From an uncultured Mycoplasmatota bacterium (GTDB taxonomy: Bacteria > Bacillota_I > Bacilli_A > RF39 > UBA660), in NCBI GenBank assembly GCA_946530475.1, contig CAMNAC010000005.1, positions 1 through 34,938 on the forward strand: a stretch of DNA of 34,938 nt, written 5' to 3'. The notes beneath the pieces were generated by a model. That model saw nothing but the letters and a program-made list of their open reading frames with translations. It ran no database searches and had not been told where the DNA came from. A program made the position numbers and the translations under genes. The first letter of the stretch is position 1, and each line of letters begins with the position of its first letter. Shown piece after piece: positions 4,976 to 26,092 of this stretch.

Positions 4976-5064
4976 GCCTGAGTGGCGGAATTGGTAGACG
5001 CACAGGACTTAAAATCCTGCGAAGGTCACACTTCATGCCGGTTCAAGTCCGGCCTTAGGCACCA
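4976..5064 (+). tRNA. tRNA-Leu(UAA)
   Basis: Class II cloverleaf, anticodon TAA, T-arm GTTCAAGTCC, encoded CCA. Confidence 0.95.
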
Positions 5065-5071
5065 TTCTTTT

Positions 5072-5163
5072 GGAGGAATACCCAAGTTGGTTGAAGGGAC
5101 TGGTCTTGAAAACCAGCAGGTCGTGCAAGCGGCGCTAGGGTTCGAATCCCTATTCCTCCGCCA
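5072..5163 (+). tRNA. tRNA-Ser(UGA)
   Basis: Class II with long variable arm, anticodon loop CTTGAAA, GTTCGAATCC, encoded CCA. Confidence 0.95.
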
Positions 5164-5177
5164 TTTTATTTTTATAT

Positions 5178-5254
<77 letters not shown>

Positions 5255-5257
5255 TAT

Positions 5258-5333
5258 GGTTCCGTGGTGTAGCGGTTATCACGTCTGCCTGTCACGCAGA
5301 AGATCGCGAGTTCGATTCTCGTCGGAACCGCCA
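5258..5333 (+). tRNA. tRNA-Asp(GUC)
   Basis: Acceptor GGTTCCG/CGGAACC, anticodon GTC, encoded CCA. Confidence 0.95.
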
Positions 5334-5341
5334 TTTTTTTT

Positions 5342-5417
5342 GGCTCTGTAGCTCAGTCGGTAGAGCAAGGGACTGAAAATCCCTGTGTCGATGGTTCGAT
5401 TCCATTCGGAGCCACCA
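5342..5417 (+). tRNA. tRNA-Phe(GAA)
   Basis: GGCTCTG...CGGAGCC, anticodon GAA, encoded CCA. Confidence 0.95.
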
Positions 5418-5426
5418 TTCGAGATT

Positions 5427-5447
5427 AAGAACATTTTGTTCTTTTTT
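5427..5447 (+). terminator. Intrinsic terminator of the first tRNA operon
   Basis: AAGAAC-ATTTT-GTTCTT followed by T tract. Confidence 0.75.
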
Positions 5448-5471
5448 ATTTATAAAAAGTGAATGAAATGA

Positions 5472-5500
5472 TTGACTTCTATTATAATTTGTGGTACCAT
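5472..5500 (+). promoter_or_regulatory. Promoter for tRNA-Arg/tRNA-Pro
   Basis: TTGACT-17 bp-TACCAT. Confidence 0.65.
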
Positions 5501-5523
5501 TTAAATTGTCTTGAAGTGGACAT

Positions 5524-5600
5524 GCGCCCTTAGCTCAATTGGATAGAGTGTTTGACTACGGATCAAAAGGTTAGGGGTTCGACTCCCTTAGGGCGCACCA
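5524..5600 (+). tRNA. tRNA-Arg(ACG)
   Basis: GCGCCCT...AGGGCGC, anticodon ACG, encoded CCA. Confidence 0.95.
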
Positions 5601-5605
5601 TAAAT

Positions 5606-5682
5606 CGGGAAATAGCACAACTTGGTAGTGCACGTGGTTTGGGACCATGAGGTTGCAGGTTCAAATCCTGTTTTCCCGACCA
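5606..5682 (+). tRNA. tRNA-Pro(UGG)
   Basis: CGGGAAA...TTTCCCG, anticodon TGG, encoded CCA. Confidence 0.95.
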
Positions 5683-6578: not shown

Positions 6579-6607
6579 TTGTCAAATTTAAAAAAATAGT
6601 GTATACT
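6579..6607 (+). promoter_or_regulatory. Sigma-A-type promoter driving a putative ncRNA
   Basis: TTGTCA-17 bp-TATACT; nearly the same form as the tRNA-Leu promoter. Confidence 0.85.
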
Positions 6608-6613
6608 TGACCT

Positions 6614-6972
6614 AGTTAGTAGAAAAGTAAATAAAATTATGAGATAGAAACATTCTTAGTAATGGTTGAATCTTTTGATTCTTCCGTTATGAGTGTTTCT
6701 AGTATCATATGACTTTTATTTCTATAACGAATATCATAGAAACACTTTTTTAGTAATGGTTATAATGGCCTGCATTAAGTTGTGGGCGCTAATCGTGAAA
6801 GAATTGATGTAGTGATTAGTAGAGATAGGAATAAAATACTATTTACAATCAAGATATTAACTATTGTGCGCAATGTGGGCCTTGATAACAGATCTTTAGG
6901 AAAAGCTGTCACTTTGATAATTGATCTGTACGAATCCACACGAAGGATGTTCTTTGACAGAGAACATTTTTT
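6614..6972 (+). ncRNA. Unidentified structured non-coding RNA (~360 nt)
   Basis: Bounded by a strong promoter and an intrinsic terminator. Contains extended hairpins, a duplicated AUAGAAACA...UUAGUAAUGGUU module, and alternative pairings. No convincing ORF. Confidence 0.65.
6947..6972 (+). terminator. Intrinsic terminator of the putative ncRNA
   Basis: ATGTTCT-TTGACAG-AGAACAT followed by T6. Confidence 0.88.
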
Positions 6973-7229: not shown

Positions 7230-7305
7230 TGGTGTCCTGTAGCAGATTCGAACTGCTGACCCTTTGATTAAAAGTCAAATGCTCTACCGACTGAGCTAAC
7301 AGGAC
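7230..7305 (-). tRNA. tRNA-Lys(UUU)
   Basis: GTCCTGT...ACAGGAC, anticodon TTT, encoded CCA. Confidence 0.95.
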
Positions 7306-7314
7306 ATTAAAAGA

Positions 7315-7390
7315 TGGCTGCCTCGGCTAGATTCGAACTAGCGCAATGCCACAGTCAAAGTGTGGTGCCTTACCACTTGGCTACGAGGCA
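7315..7390 (-). tRNA. tRNA-Gln(UUG)
   Basis: TGCCTCG...CGAGGCA, anticodon TTG, encoded CCA. Confidence 0.94.
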
Positions 7391-7402
7391 ATCTAATTAA
7401 AG

Positions 7403-7486
7403 TGGTGGAGGGGAATGGATTTGAACCATTGAACCCGAAGGAACAGATTTACAGTCTGCCGCGTTTGACCACTTCGCTACCCCTCC
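7403..7486 (-). tRNA. tRNA-Tyr(GUA)
   Basis: Class II, GGAGGGG...CCCCTCC, anticodon GTA, encoded CCA. Confidence 0.95.
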
Positions 7487-7491
7487 AAAAA

Positions 7492-7567
<76 letters not shown>

Positions 7568-7573
7568 ATAATC

Positions 7574-7650
7574 TGGTGGGGGATATAGGACTCGAACCTA
7601 TGACCCCCTGCTTGTAGGGCAGATGCTCTAACCAACTGAGCTAATCCCCC
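7574..7650 (-). tRNA. tRNA-Val(UAC)
   Basis: GGGGGAT...ATCCCCC, anticodon TAC, encoded CCA. Confidence 0.95.
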
Positions 7651-10888: not shown

Positions 10889-10899
10889 AGAAAAACAAA

Positions 10900-11108
10900 G
10901 AAGCAGAGAGTACTATTTTTCCTTAATTTTAAGCGAGTTAGGTATGGTGTGAGCTAACATTAAGTAAATAGGAAAAACACTGTGGAGTTGCTTATCTGAA
11001 ATAAGTAGGATAATGCCGGTAAAATCCGTTATTCAATGAAGATCATAAAGTTATGATAAATTAAGGTGGTACCGCGATTTTCGCCCTTAGTCTCATAACT
11101 TTTTTTGT
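10900..11108 (+). promoter_or_regulatory. T-box leader (tRNA-Asn-responsive)
   Basis: AAGCAGAGAGTA; candidate specifier AAC at 10976-10978; core AAGGTGGTACCGCG; terminator arms AAAGTTATGA/TCATAACTTT plus T tract. Confidence 0.92.
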
Positions 11109-18830: not shown

Positions 18831-19919
18831 ATGAAAAGAATATGGATAATTATAATGGTTATACTATTGTTACCATTTCCTGTAAAAGCATTCTCTTCTT
18901 CTGCAACTTCCACTGTTTTAATGGACATGGATAGTCATCGAGTACTCTATTCAAATAATCGAAATCAAGTAAGAAGTGTCGCTTCCATTTCTAAAATAAT
19001 GACCGCAATTCTTGCAGTAGAAAGTGGGAAACTAGAAGAGGAAGTTGAAATAGGGGAGGAAATTCTAAAAGCGTATGGGTCTGCTATTTATATCAAAGTA
19101 GGAGAACATATGAAATTAAAAGATCTTGTGTATGGGCTTATGCTTAGAAGTGGAAATGATGCGGCTCTTGCAATTGCGAATTATGTTGGAGGAAGCGTAG
19201 AAAGATTTGTTCTCATGATGAATGAAAAAGCAAAAGAGATAGGAATGTCCAATACAACTTTCCATAATCCAAGTGGATTGGATGAAACAGACAAGGGAAA
19301 TCTGTCTACAGCTTATGACATGGCTCTTTTAACTTCTTATGCAATGAAAAATGCGGAATATAAAGAAATTGTAAAAACAAAAAAACATAGTGTAAAAACA
19401 GATTGTAACTATTATATTTGGCACAATAAAAATAAAATGTTATCGATATATCCATATTCTACTGGTGGTAAAACAGGATATACAGAAATCGCCAAAAGAA
19501 CTCTTGTCAGTACAGCCTCTAAAAACGGTTTAAATCTAGTTGCTGTGACATTAAATGATGGAAATGATTGGAATGATCATAAAAACCTTATGGAAGAAGC
19601 TTATGAAACTTATACTAATTATCCGATTTTAAAAAAGGGAGAAATTATAATTGATGAAGAAACTCATTATCTAAATGAAACACTATATATTAAGAATGAT
19701 GTTACTTATCCAATCAAAGAAACGGAAAAAAATATGATTTCTATCAAATATGAATTAGAAAAGAAAAAAGACTATAATAACCATGATTCTATTGGGAAAG
19801 TAATGATTTATTTCGGCGATGAACTGATAAAAGAAGAGCCAGTTTATATTCAAAAAGCGAAAGAAAAGAAGGAACCTTTTCTAAAAAAGTTAAAGAAATG
19901 GTTTGATTCCTTATGGTAA
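18831..19919 (+). CDS. dacB: D-alanyl-D-alanine carboxypeptidase (DacB/DacF-like PBP)
   Basis: Signal peptide; SxxK (SISK), SGN, KTG motifs; linked to spmA-spmB-rluB as B. subtilis dacB is. Confidence 0.82.
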   Translation: MKRIWIIIMVILLLPFPVKAFSSSATSTVLMDMDSHRVLYSNNRNQVRSVASISKIMTAILAVESGKLEEEVEIGEEILKAYGSAIYIKVGEHMKLKDLVYGLMLRSGNDAALAIANYVGGSVERFVLMMNEKAKEIGMSNTTFHNPSGLDETDKGNLSTAYDMALLTSYAMKNAEYKEIVKTKKHSVKTDCNYYIWHNKNKMLSIYPYSTGGKTGYTEIAKRTLVSTASKNGLNLVAVTLNDGNDWNDHKNLMEEAYETYTNYPILKKGEIIIDEETHYLNETLYIKNDVTYPIKETEKNMISIKYELEKKKDYNNHDSIGKVMIYFGDELIKEEPVYIQKAKEKKEPFLKKLKKWFDSLW

Positions 19920-20503
19920 ATATGATATGGGGATGTTTTATTATAATTGGAATTCTTTCCTTTTTTATACAAGGTGATTTTTCTTTATTAAATGAAACAA
20001 TATTAAAAAGTACCAAAAATGCATTTGATTTGACCATTCAATTATTTCCAATGATGGCATTATGGTTGGGTATCATGAAAATTGCATCTTCCTCTGGATT
20101 GCTTCAAAAATTAAGTCATTTATTGTATCCATTATTATCGAAACTATTTCCAGAAATCCCTAAAAATGATGAATCTTTTTCCTTTATTGCTTCTAATATC
20201 ATTGCAAATTTATTTGGATTAGGGAATGCAGCAACACCATTTGGGCTTAAAGCAATGAAGTCTTTGCAAACGATCAATAAAAAGAAAGATACCGCTTCTA
20301 GAAGCATGATTACTTTTTTAGCGATTAATACAAGTGGTTTAACGATGATACCCACTACAATCATTTCCATGCGTCTTATGTATGGGAGCAAACATCCTAC
20401 TGAGATTGTATTTGCTTGTATTTTCGCGACAGCTTGCTCTACTATAGCTGCTCTATTATTAGATCGATATTATGCAAAAAAGGAGGAAAAAAAGTGCAGA
20501 TAA
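19913..20503 (+). CDS. spmA: Spore maturation protein A
   Basis: Gate/nucleoside-recognition domain; order dac-spmA-spmB. Confidence 0.85.
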   Translation: MVNMIWGCFIIIGILSFFIQGDFSLLNETILKSTKNAFDLTIQLFPMMALWLGIMKIASSSGLLQKLSHLLYPLLSKLFPEIPKNDESFSFIASNIIANLFGLGNAATPFGLKAMKSLQTINKKKDTASRSMITFLAINTSGLTMIPTTIISMRLMYGSKHPTEIVFACIFATACSTIAALLLDRYYAKKEEKKCR

Positions 20504-21000
20504 TATCCAGTTTTCTACTTCCTTTTTTGATTTTAGTCGTTATTTTTTATGGAATTATAAAAAAAGTTCCGATTTATGATGTTTTTATAGAAGGAGCAAA
20601 AGAATCCTATGAAATGATTCTAAGTTTATTTCCTTGTATGCTAGGAATGACTTTAGGAGTAAATTTATTGCTAAAAGGAAATTTGATTTCTTTTTTGTTA
20701 TCTTATCTTTCTTTTCTTCCGATTCCAAAAGAAGTCATTCCAATGACATTACTACGTTCTATTTCAGGAAGTACAACACTTGCATTTATGAATCACCTTT
20801 TTGAATTATATGGACCAGATAGTTTAATTGGAAGACTTGCATCTGTAATTCAAGGATCGACAGATACTACTATTTATATTTTAACTTTGTATTTTGGAAG
20901 TATTGGAATAAAGAAAACAAAGTATGCACTTAAAGTAGGACTTTTTGCAGATTTGATTGGAATCATCGCAAGTGTTATTGCAGTAGAGTTGTTTTTTTAA
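20494..21000 (+). CDS. spmB: Spore maturation protein B
   Basis: SpmB-like membrane protein; GTG start 8 bp after AAGGAGG (ORF-track start 20416 is upstream). Confidence 0.82.
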   Translation: MQIISSFLLPFLILVVIFYGIIKKVPIYDVFIEGAKESYEMILSLFPCMLGMTLGVNLLLKGNLISFLLSYLSFLPIPKEVIPMTLLRSISGSTTLAFMNHLFELYGPDSLIGRLASVIQGSTDTTIYILTLYFGSIGIKKTKYALKVGLFADLIGIIASVIAVELFF

Positions 21001-24656: not shown

Positions 24657-24677
24657 AGATAATATTATCTTTATTTT
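24650..24677. terminator. Palindromic terminator-like element between convergent genes
   Basis: AAAATAAAGATAAT/ATTATCTTTATTTT, perfect 14-bp arms; both stop codons inside. Confidence 0.6.
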
Positions 24678-26092
24678 TTTTTGATTTTATCTTTTGGCTT
24701 TAGGTAACCAGGCCTATTTGTATCATTTTTTTTTGAAACTCTTATCCATAATTTCTTTACTTCTTCTTTTTGAAAAGGATATATTGGACTCAAGTATGGA
24801 ATATCTAAAGATTTCAAATGCATTAAGTGAAATAATAAAACAATAAATATTACAAAGACACCTATTAAACCTTGACAAGCTGCTCCTACTAAAAAAAGAT
24901 ATCTCCAAATACGAAGCGCATATACAAAATCGATATCAGAGAATAACAAGCCACTGATAGCGGTGATGGCAGTTATAATGACTGCAATACTGGAAACAAG
25001 CCCTGCGGATACTGCGGCATCCCCTAATACAAGCGCTCCTACCACTCCAATAGATGTCCCCATTTTATTTGGAATTCGAATATCGCTTTCTCTTAAAATT
25101 TCAAAAACGGTTACTAGCAAAAAGATTTCTAAAAATGCTGAAACAAAGAGTCCTTCTCTTTGAACAGTGAGTGTTTCATAGATGCTTTTTGATATGAGAT
25201 TTTTATTAAAGGTAATAATCGATACATAAATTGCAGGAGTTAAAAGTGTGATGAAAAAACAAAGAATTCTAAGAACTCTTGTAAAAGAACTATTAATAGG
25301 GCTCAAGTATTCATCTTCTGTATTATGAAGATAGTCAATAAAAAGCCCTGGAATAATAAGTGCAATTGGAGAATTGTCAACTAAAATTATAAACTTACCT
25401 TCTAACAAAGCCATTGATACTAAATCAGGCCTTTCTGTACTTAAGATAGTGGGGAAAGCTGTTTTCCAAGTACTTAAGAATTCTTTTATAGTACTACTAT
25501 CTAATATCGAATCAATATCAATATTATTCAGTTTTTTTTCAATTTGCTTTCTTTTTTTTTCATCAATTAAGTCTTTTAAATAAGAAAGTATTACTTTTGT
25601 CTTGGTTCTTCTTCCAATCACAAATTCTTGAAAACTAAGATTGGTATCTTTAATTCTTTTTCGAATGAGTCCCATATTCAGCAGAATATTTTCAGTAAAA
25701 CTATCTTTTGGACCACGTAATACTACTTCATTGTTGGAACTTTCAATTCCTCTATTTAAAGAGTTTTTTGTTTCAATTCCAATCGCATTTTGTTCTCCTT
25801 CTATAAAAATAATCGTGAATCCATTTTGTAGATAAAAAATGATTTCTTTCATGTCAGAAATTGTTTTTAATTTGTTGTTTGGAATGGTATTTTTTAAAGA
25901 AGAGAAGAGATTTGAATAATCAAATTTTGTGATTTCTTTCATAAAAAAATCACTTATTTTATCATCACTACATAGACTTTCTAATAATACATAGGATATT
26001 TTCTTTTGAATGGTTCGAACATAAAAATCACTAGAACATTGAAACACTTTTTTTAAAGTTTGAATGTTTTCTTCTAAATTTTTAGAAATCAT
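24671..26092 (-). CDS. Spore germination protein, GerA family (GerAA/SpoVAF-like)
   Basis: 'SSNNEVVLRGPKDSFTENILLNMGLIRKRI', 'EGLFVSAFLEIFLLVTVFEILRESDIRIPNKMGTSIGVVGALVLGDAAVSAGLVSS'. Confidence 0.92.
   Translation of the reverse strand: MISKNLEENIQTLKKVFQCSSDFYVRTIQKKISYVLLESLCSDDKISDFFMKEITKFDYSNLFSSLKNTIPNNKLKTISDMKEIIFYLQNGFTIIFIEGEQNAIGIETKNSLNRGIESSNNEVVLRGPKDSFTENILLNMGLIRKRIKDTNLSFQEFVIGRRTKTKVILSYLKDLIDEKKRKQIEKKLNNIDIDSILDSSTIKEFLSTWKTAFPTILSTERPDLVSMALLEGKFIILVDNSPIALIIPGLFIDYLHNTEDEYLSPINSSFTRVLRILCFFITLLTPAIYVSIITFNKNLISKSIYETLTVQREGLFVSAFLEIFLLVTVFEILRESDIRIPNKMGTSIGVVGALVLGDAAVSAGLVSSIAVIITAITAISGLLFSDIDFVYALRIWRYLFLVGAACQGLIGVFVIFIVLLFHLMHLKSLDIPYLSPIYPFQKEEVKKLWIRVSKKNDTNRPGYLKPKDKIKKK

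Follow-up and report, generated by a model that had tools for sequence, protein, structure and literature searches.

A free-standing, pseudoknotted RNA family of RF39-like gut Bacilli, with probable kinship to PGK RNA and a predicted homodimer contact

An RNA gene and its surroundings

The window, the whole 34,938-nt stretch of DNA analyzed from an uncultured Mycoplasmatota bacterium, carries a stand-alone RNA gene at positions 6612–6972 of the + strand, with a methyltransferase-like gene on one side and a tRNA-Ala gene downstream. The gene, its promoter and the pairings predicted within it are laid out as follows.

6579–6607, + strand: sigma-70 promoter TTGTCA-17-TATACT (−35 box at 6579–6584, −10 box at 6602–6607)
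6613–6621, + strand: strand a of helix P1, TAGTTAGTA, just past the predicted transcription start; pairs with 6855–6863
6627–6633, + strand: 5' strand of P0, GTAAATA; pairs with 6840–6846 and closes the variable 5' domain
6634–6839, + strand: variable 5' domain, with a long hairpin near 6638–6709
6840–6846, + strand: 3' strand of P0, TATTTAC
6848–6853, + strand: 5' strand of P2, ATCAAG; pairs with 6881–6886
6855–6863, + strand: strand a' of P1, TATTAACTA, inside P2 and so forming a pseudoknot
6863–6874, + strand: self-complementary element AUUGUGCGCAAU, 12 nt in the window; predicted dimer contact
6875–6878, + strand: strand d, GUGG; pairs with CCAC at 6936–6939
6881–6886, + strand: 3' strand of P2, CUUGAU
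6889–6928, + strand: P4 hairpin, CAGATC/GATCTG, with an apical AAAG/CUUU stem and a hexaloop
6906–6911, + strand: loop k, CUGUCA, in the P4 loop; predicted to kiss UGACAG of the terminator loop
6936–6939, + strand: strand d', CCAC, beyond P4
6947–6972, + strand: intrinsic terminator, stem ATGTTCT (6947–6953)/AGAACAT (6961–6967), then T6
6955–6960, + strand: strand k', in the terminator loop UUGACAG

A sequence-only reading of this locus had described the TTGTCA-17-TATACT promoter, a T6 terminator with a 7-bp stem, and a transcript without a credible protein, and all of this was borne out. No protein-like open reading frame is found in the span, where the sole frame of at least 80 amino acids is a GTG frame that crosses the downstream tRNA-Ala gene. 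The window RNA folds to −96.7 kcal/mol compared with a shuffled mean of −70.9 ± 5.1 (z = −5.0), and none of 100 shuffles did as well. Its 5' domain contains an imperfect direct repeat, ATAGAAACA..TTAGTAATGGTT (6645–6668 and 6736–6761), that is not obvious in other members of the family.

The tRNA genes of several relatives form one continuous array, Val-Thr-Tyr-Gln-Lys-Leu-Ser-Met-Asp-Phe-Arg-Pro, with Ala included in locus L055. In the window the array is split (4976–5682 and 7230–7650), the part from Val to Lys is inverted relative to that from Leu to Pro, and the RNA gene, tRNA-Ala and the methyltransferase-like gene lie between the halves. The description of the locus as lying between tRNA clusters holds for the window, but it is not a trait of the family, as most of the 30 loci found in GTDB contigs (see below) have no tRNA gene nearby. 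Elsewhere in the window, a T-box leader (10889–11091, 124.6 bits) immediately precedes an asparaginyl-tRNA synthetase-like gene (11105) named from its translation. Translations read at 18831–21000 and 24671–26092 include SpmA/SpmB and DacB-like (spore maturation) and GerA-like (germination) genes; the genome that holds these sporulation- and germination-like genes is only ~0.9 Mb (incomplete).

Comparison of the span with Rfam gave nothing at the gathering threshold, and relaxing the E-value added only sub-threshold matches at chance level. RNase P RNA, tmRNA, and 6S RNA were rejected as identities: none has an Rfam match at the locus, and the check for rnpB, ssrA, and ssrS elsewhere found all three (RNase P RNA of type B) on other contigs of the same genome. 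For SRP RNA, the locus alone was searched and gave no Rfam match.

Distribution and covariation of the RNA family

Searches with BLASTN in 60 relatives returned only short chance matches, and those inspected were inside coding genes. Against 386 genomes of the bacterial family, the first true homologue was a pair of tandem copies upstream of rpsL in genome G355, where rpsL and rpsG were recognized from the sequence itself. A covariance model, R1, made from the 3' 130 nt of three sequences (the window and the two G355 copies) matched 31 of the 386 genomes, with E-values down to 1e-29, and the refined model, R2, matched 32 of 372 (~9%), in 18 of 150 genera. These prevalences are lower bounds, because the initial filter passes only a small number of candidates from each genome to scoring; when 36 family genomes were searched more sensitively, a further divergent copy, L172, emerged and was convincing. 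A match in G129 (E = 0.04) lies within a coding sequence and was rejected.

Only two of 395 genomes drawn from the class were matched, both belonging to the bacterial family, and this class-wide search gave no confirmed match outside it. With relaxed filters, 23 out-of-family genomes yielded one weak match, in G057 (E = 0.08), judged false since it lies beside a small coding gene and has none of the family hallmarks. A pattern scan of 11.3 million GTDB contigs matched 30, titled as uncultured Bacilli, Firmicutes, Mycoplasmatota, Tenericutes, Erysipelotrichaceae, Mycoplasma, or Bacillales MAGs. For the motif searched, 2.9 million viral contigs contained 0 copies. Among phages and plasmids nothing beyond chance matches of ~20–40 nt turned up, and tracing gene order along the tRNA array failed to locate the RNA in those relatives that were examined. 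The host clade is one bacterial family of small-genome gut Bacilli, inferred to be RF39-like on the basis of genome size, gut origin, and kinship. The patchy distribution (~9% of family genomes) would mean either that the RNA is dispensable in many relatives or that the search missed it. That the window RNA is a member of a real family is nearly certain. The genes found beside copies include rpsL, acpS, femAB, cyclophilin, RNase J, mutL, herA, and tRNA-Ala, none of them constant, and clustering of the neighboring genes gave limited synteny, chiefly among near relatives; the diversity of these housekeeping neighbors argues for action in trans.

The family promoter (TTGnnn, a 16–17-nt spacer, and a TATAAT-like box) is present in 48 of 50 copies, 43 of them with a 17-nt spacer, and stands directly 5' of strand a, at the predicted 5' end of the RNA. 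At least 8 of the 9 pairs of P1 can form in 46 of the 50 copies; one position is C-G in 37 and G-C in 10, and further pairs have changed together in L119, L171, and L172. A helix equivalent to P0 occurs in most copies with a sequence that varies from copy to copy, and the region before strand b measures about 120–290 nt across the family.

The core was assessed in an alignment of 50 distinct rows, which includes the pseudoknots and leaves P1 and P0 outside. In this core 95.4% of cells are paired compared with 79.9% in shuffles, 40 of 43 pairs have changed on both sides, and doubly changed cells number 299, where shuffles average 73; sliding the registers brought pairing down to 34–43%. The P2 helix is paired in 97.9% of cells, with 8 of 8 pairs changed on both sides, P4 (helices 6 and 7) is 95–99% paired and every pair has changed on both sides, and the terminator (helix 9) is 99.3% paired with such changes in 9 of 9 pairs. 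Because the alignment had been fitted to P2, P4, and the terminator, it favors these elements. The model that produced it does not contain k–k', d–d', a–a', or the palindrome, and the fit therefore gives these no advantage.

Strands d and d' have changed in concert in L119, L124, L125, L130, L131, and L169, and the helix is only 78–86% paired in the 50-row alignment, partly through misalignment. The branch formed by L116, L119, L120, and L131 has a small additional hairpin, such as GGG-AAAGUGG-CCC, with strand d in its loop. This arrangement falls between two others, the GUGG form and the GAGAAAGAAAACUC hairpin that PGK-type members carry (see below).

The contact between the P4 loop and the terminator loop, k–k' (helix 8), is 97.7% paired. 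Its commonest form is CUGUCA/UGACAG, and six other complementary combinations are found in different genera: CUAUCA/UGAUAG (L115, L118, L151, L161), UUGUCA/UGACAA (L125), UGUCAG/CUGACA (L130), UAGUC/GACUA (L123), CUGACA/UGUCAG (L171, L172), and AUGUCGA/UCGACAU (L169). When partners were swapped between sequences, the difference in helix length was small (7.66 against 7.14 for k–k', 5.12 against 4.81 for d–d'), because most copies carry the same letters. The argument for both contacts is carried by the column-wise count and the individual variants, not by the swap. Strong evidence for a putative loop–terminator contact comes from the concerted variants, and such a contact would place the terminator hairpin within the mature fold. 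The existence of the family and its predicted fold are well supported by patterns of base substitution, with no structure or expression data. The view of this locus as a structured RNA has gained support from homologues in at least 18 genera, strong covariation that extends to tertiary contacts, and a conserved promoter-to-terminator layout.

Probable relation to PGK RNA

PGK RNA (Rfam RF03040) is located upstream of the phosphoglycerate kinase gene. One divergent member of the family, L171, scores 58.1 bits against its model (cut-off 50.8) and covers all 92 positions. R2 detected this copy independently, with E = 2e-5 for the genome that carries it; the copy has P1, the palindrome, the kissing loop, and the promoter. 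It shares with PGK RNA the helix P2 (CUUAUC/GAUAAG) and a P4 with a CUGA-type loop. The PGK RNA consensus has P2, a palindrome (ACAAUUGU), and P4 in the same order and place as in the family, and this layout, with the palindrome between P2 and P4, is met in both L171 and the window. A second copy, L172, shares the GAGAAAGAAAACUC element and scores weakly, at 19.3 bits. The Rfam model differs in having no promoter, P1, 5' domain, terminator, or kissing loop, and is typed Cis-reg.

The window itself gave no match to the PGK RNA model up to E = 10, and the other members tested are likewise beyond its reach. The window is accordingly counted as a variant and not as a PGK member, and its link to PGK RNA rests on L171 and L172 as intermediates. 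No pgk gene is adjacent to either of these in the stretches read, and the window has tRNA-Ala downstream. It is highly probable that PGK RNA is related to the window family, and we interpret this 92-nt ‘cis-regulatory’ motif as a core, cut short, from one branch of a larger family of free-standing RNAs. The sequence-only reading had left a choice between an uncharacterized family and a very divergent known one, and there is part of the truth in each, as the window matches no Rfam family while a divergent relative matches PGK RNA, a known motif that is itself poorly characterized.

A predicted homodimer and its possible roles

The self-complementary element that follows a' is 10–18 nt long across the family and has no room for a loop. 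Self-complementarity of at least 10 nt without a loop is present in 50 of 50 copies, compared with 21% of shuffles. The adjacent columns 27 and 28 covary (CG 20, UA 16, UG 7, AU 4), and at least ten central tetramers occur, nearly all of them strict palindromes (ACGU, GUAC, CAUG, AAUU, GCGC, AUAU, UGCA, and UAUA, with wobble forms, and GAUC in L168); L169 departs from this in having a single central U. A hairpin would need only the outer pairs; the innermost cannot form within one chain, yet columns 27 and 28 covary. In a cryo-EM study of OLE, ROOL, and GOLLD, adjacent-base covariation in palindromic loops served as evidence for intermolecular pairing, and the self-complementarity test was used for the homodimer contacts in OLE and GOLLD (PMC12286853). 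The present family meets this covariation signature of homo-oligomeric ornate RNAs, in columns 27/28 and in its self-complementarity. Pairing of two RNA molecules through the element, giving a homodimer, is a likely inference from these data, although no dimer has been measured.

The tandem copies in G355 and in L112 have the same palindrome core within each tandem, so that they could pair together. Two unlinked copies in one genome, L168 (G174:C37) and L123 (G174:C36), have differing palindromes, UAUGAUCAUA and AGGUGUACACUU, which would favor like-with-like over mixed dimers.

ROOL is linked to phages and prophages, a trait not met here, with 0 viral contigs matched and housekeeping genes as neighbors. 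GOLLD and ROOL resemble the family in being stand-alone, pseudoknotted RNAs that form homo-oligomers through kissing loops (PMC12286853), but they have no Rfam match to it and the window family is roughly half their size or less. The raiA motif RNA is also a structured RNA of Bacillota with a complex tertiary fold; it too has no Rfam match here, and it was solved as a monomer (PMC12286853).

The best explanation as a whole, with a probability of roughly 0.6 and no expression or structure data behind it, is a free-standing, pseudoknotted RNA gene whose product acts in trans as a homodimer, with PGK RNA as one branch. Sequence and comparison show the segment 6612–6972 to be a single-copy gene with its own sigma-70 promoter and a terminator that forms part of the fold. 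The fold that they support is a chain of interlocked pseudoknots, in which a pairs with a' inside P2, GUGG inside P2 with CCAC beyond P4, and the P4 loop with the terminator loop. Joined through the 12-nt element in the core, the homodimer is inferred to be stable, compact and resistant to exonucleases. It may act in trans, with an OLE-like function as a scaffold or the core of an RNP as the likeliest role; such a role is tentative and somewhat short of an even chance, being inferred by analogy without an assay.

Action in trans would be favored over regulation of a neighboring gene in cis. In the latter case the RNA would be a leader or attenuator of the downstream gene, with the loop–terminator contact controlling read-through, and the interaction of the terminator loop with an upstream loop, the Cis-reg type given to PGK RNA by Rfam, and the many copies that lie upstream of a same-strand gene are all compatible with it. 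This is improbable, as the downstream genes vary by genus and several are convergent (for example, an acpS-type gene in 7 loci), the window has tRNA-Ala in that place, and no pgk lies beside the two PGK-like members in the stretches read. Furthermore, a strong terminator is conserved, with a hairpin that enters the fold intact. Harder to set aside is a monomeric RNA whose palindrome serves some other purpose, for example as a DNA-binding site or as the site for a protein dimer, since a protein could recognize a perfect palindrome in the DNA and the homodimer itself is only predicted. We consider it unlikely nonetheless, because the palindrome has a fixed place inside the conserved RNA core and its sequence shifts between genera with self-complementarity kept, unlike a fixed protein site.

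The RNA might also be a highly divergent OLE RNA. OLE, a large ornate RNA of Bacillota including RF39, likewise has a symmetric palindromic kissing loop at a supposed dimer contact (PMC12286853; PMC11332333), and the host clade is probably the same, as RF39 genomes are reported to carry an OLE ‘variant 2’ without P7 and P8 (PMC11332333). The OLE covariance model nevertheless found no match in the window, even at relaxed thresholds, or in the divergent members, whereas the variant 2 RNAs that have been published reach 235 bits or more against the model used in that work (PMC11332333). The window RNA is also much shorter, and no constant neighbor such as oapA was seen, which leaves this identity very doubtful. 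The region is AT-rich and offers many possible stems, so a chance structured intergenic stretch or a decayed gene might be envisaged, but the z-score of −5 and the covariation across many genera speak against this, and the pair covariation in the 50-row alignment refutes it.

To our knowledge, natural RNAs known or suspected to work as homo-oligomers are few, and their roles are open. The odds lean slightly towards the RNA described here being a new class of natural homodimeric RNA, ~300–360 nt long, with an interlocked-pseudoknot core locked by a loop–terminator kiss and a palindrome that has taken on at least ten different sequences without losing its self-complementarity; PGK RNA would be a fragment of one branch. 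Members of the family are short enough for routine biochemistry, and evolution has left an unusually clear mark on the supposed dimer contact. It is also suggested that the PGK RNA of Rfam, filed as cis-regulatory, corresponds to a free-standing RNA gene truncated to its core, in a family that is widespread in uncultured gut bacteria yet almost undescribed.
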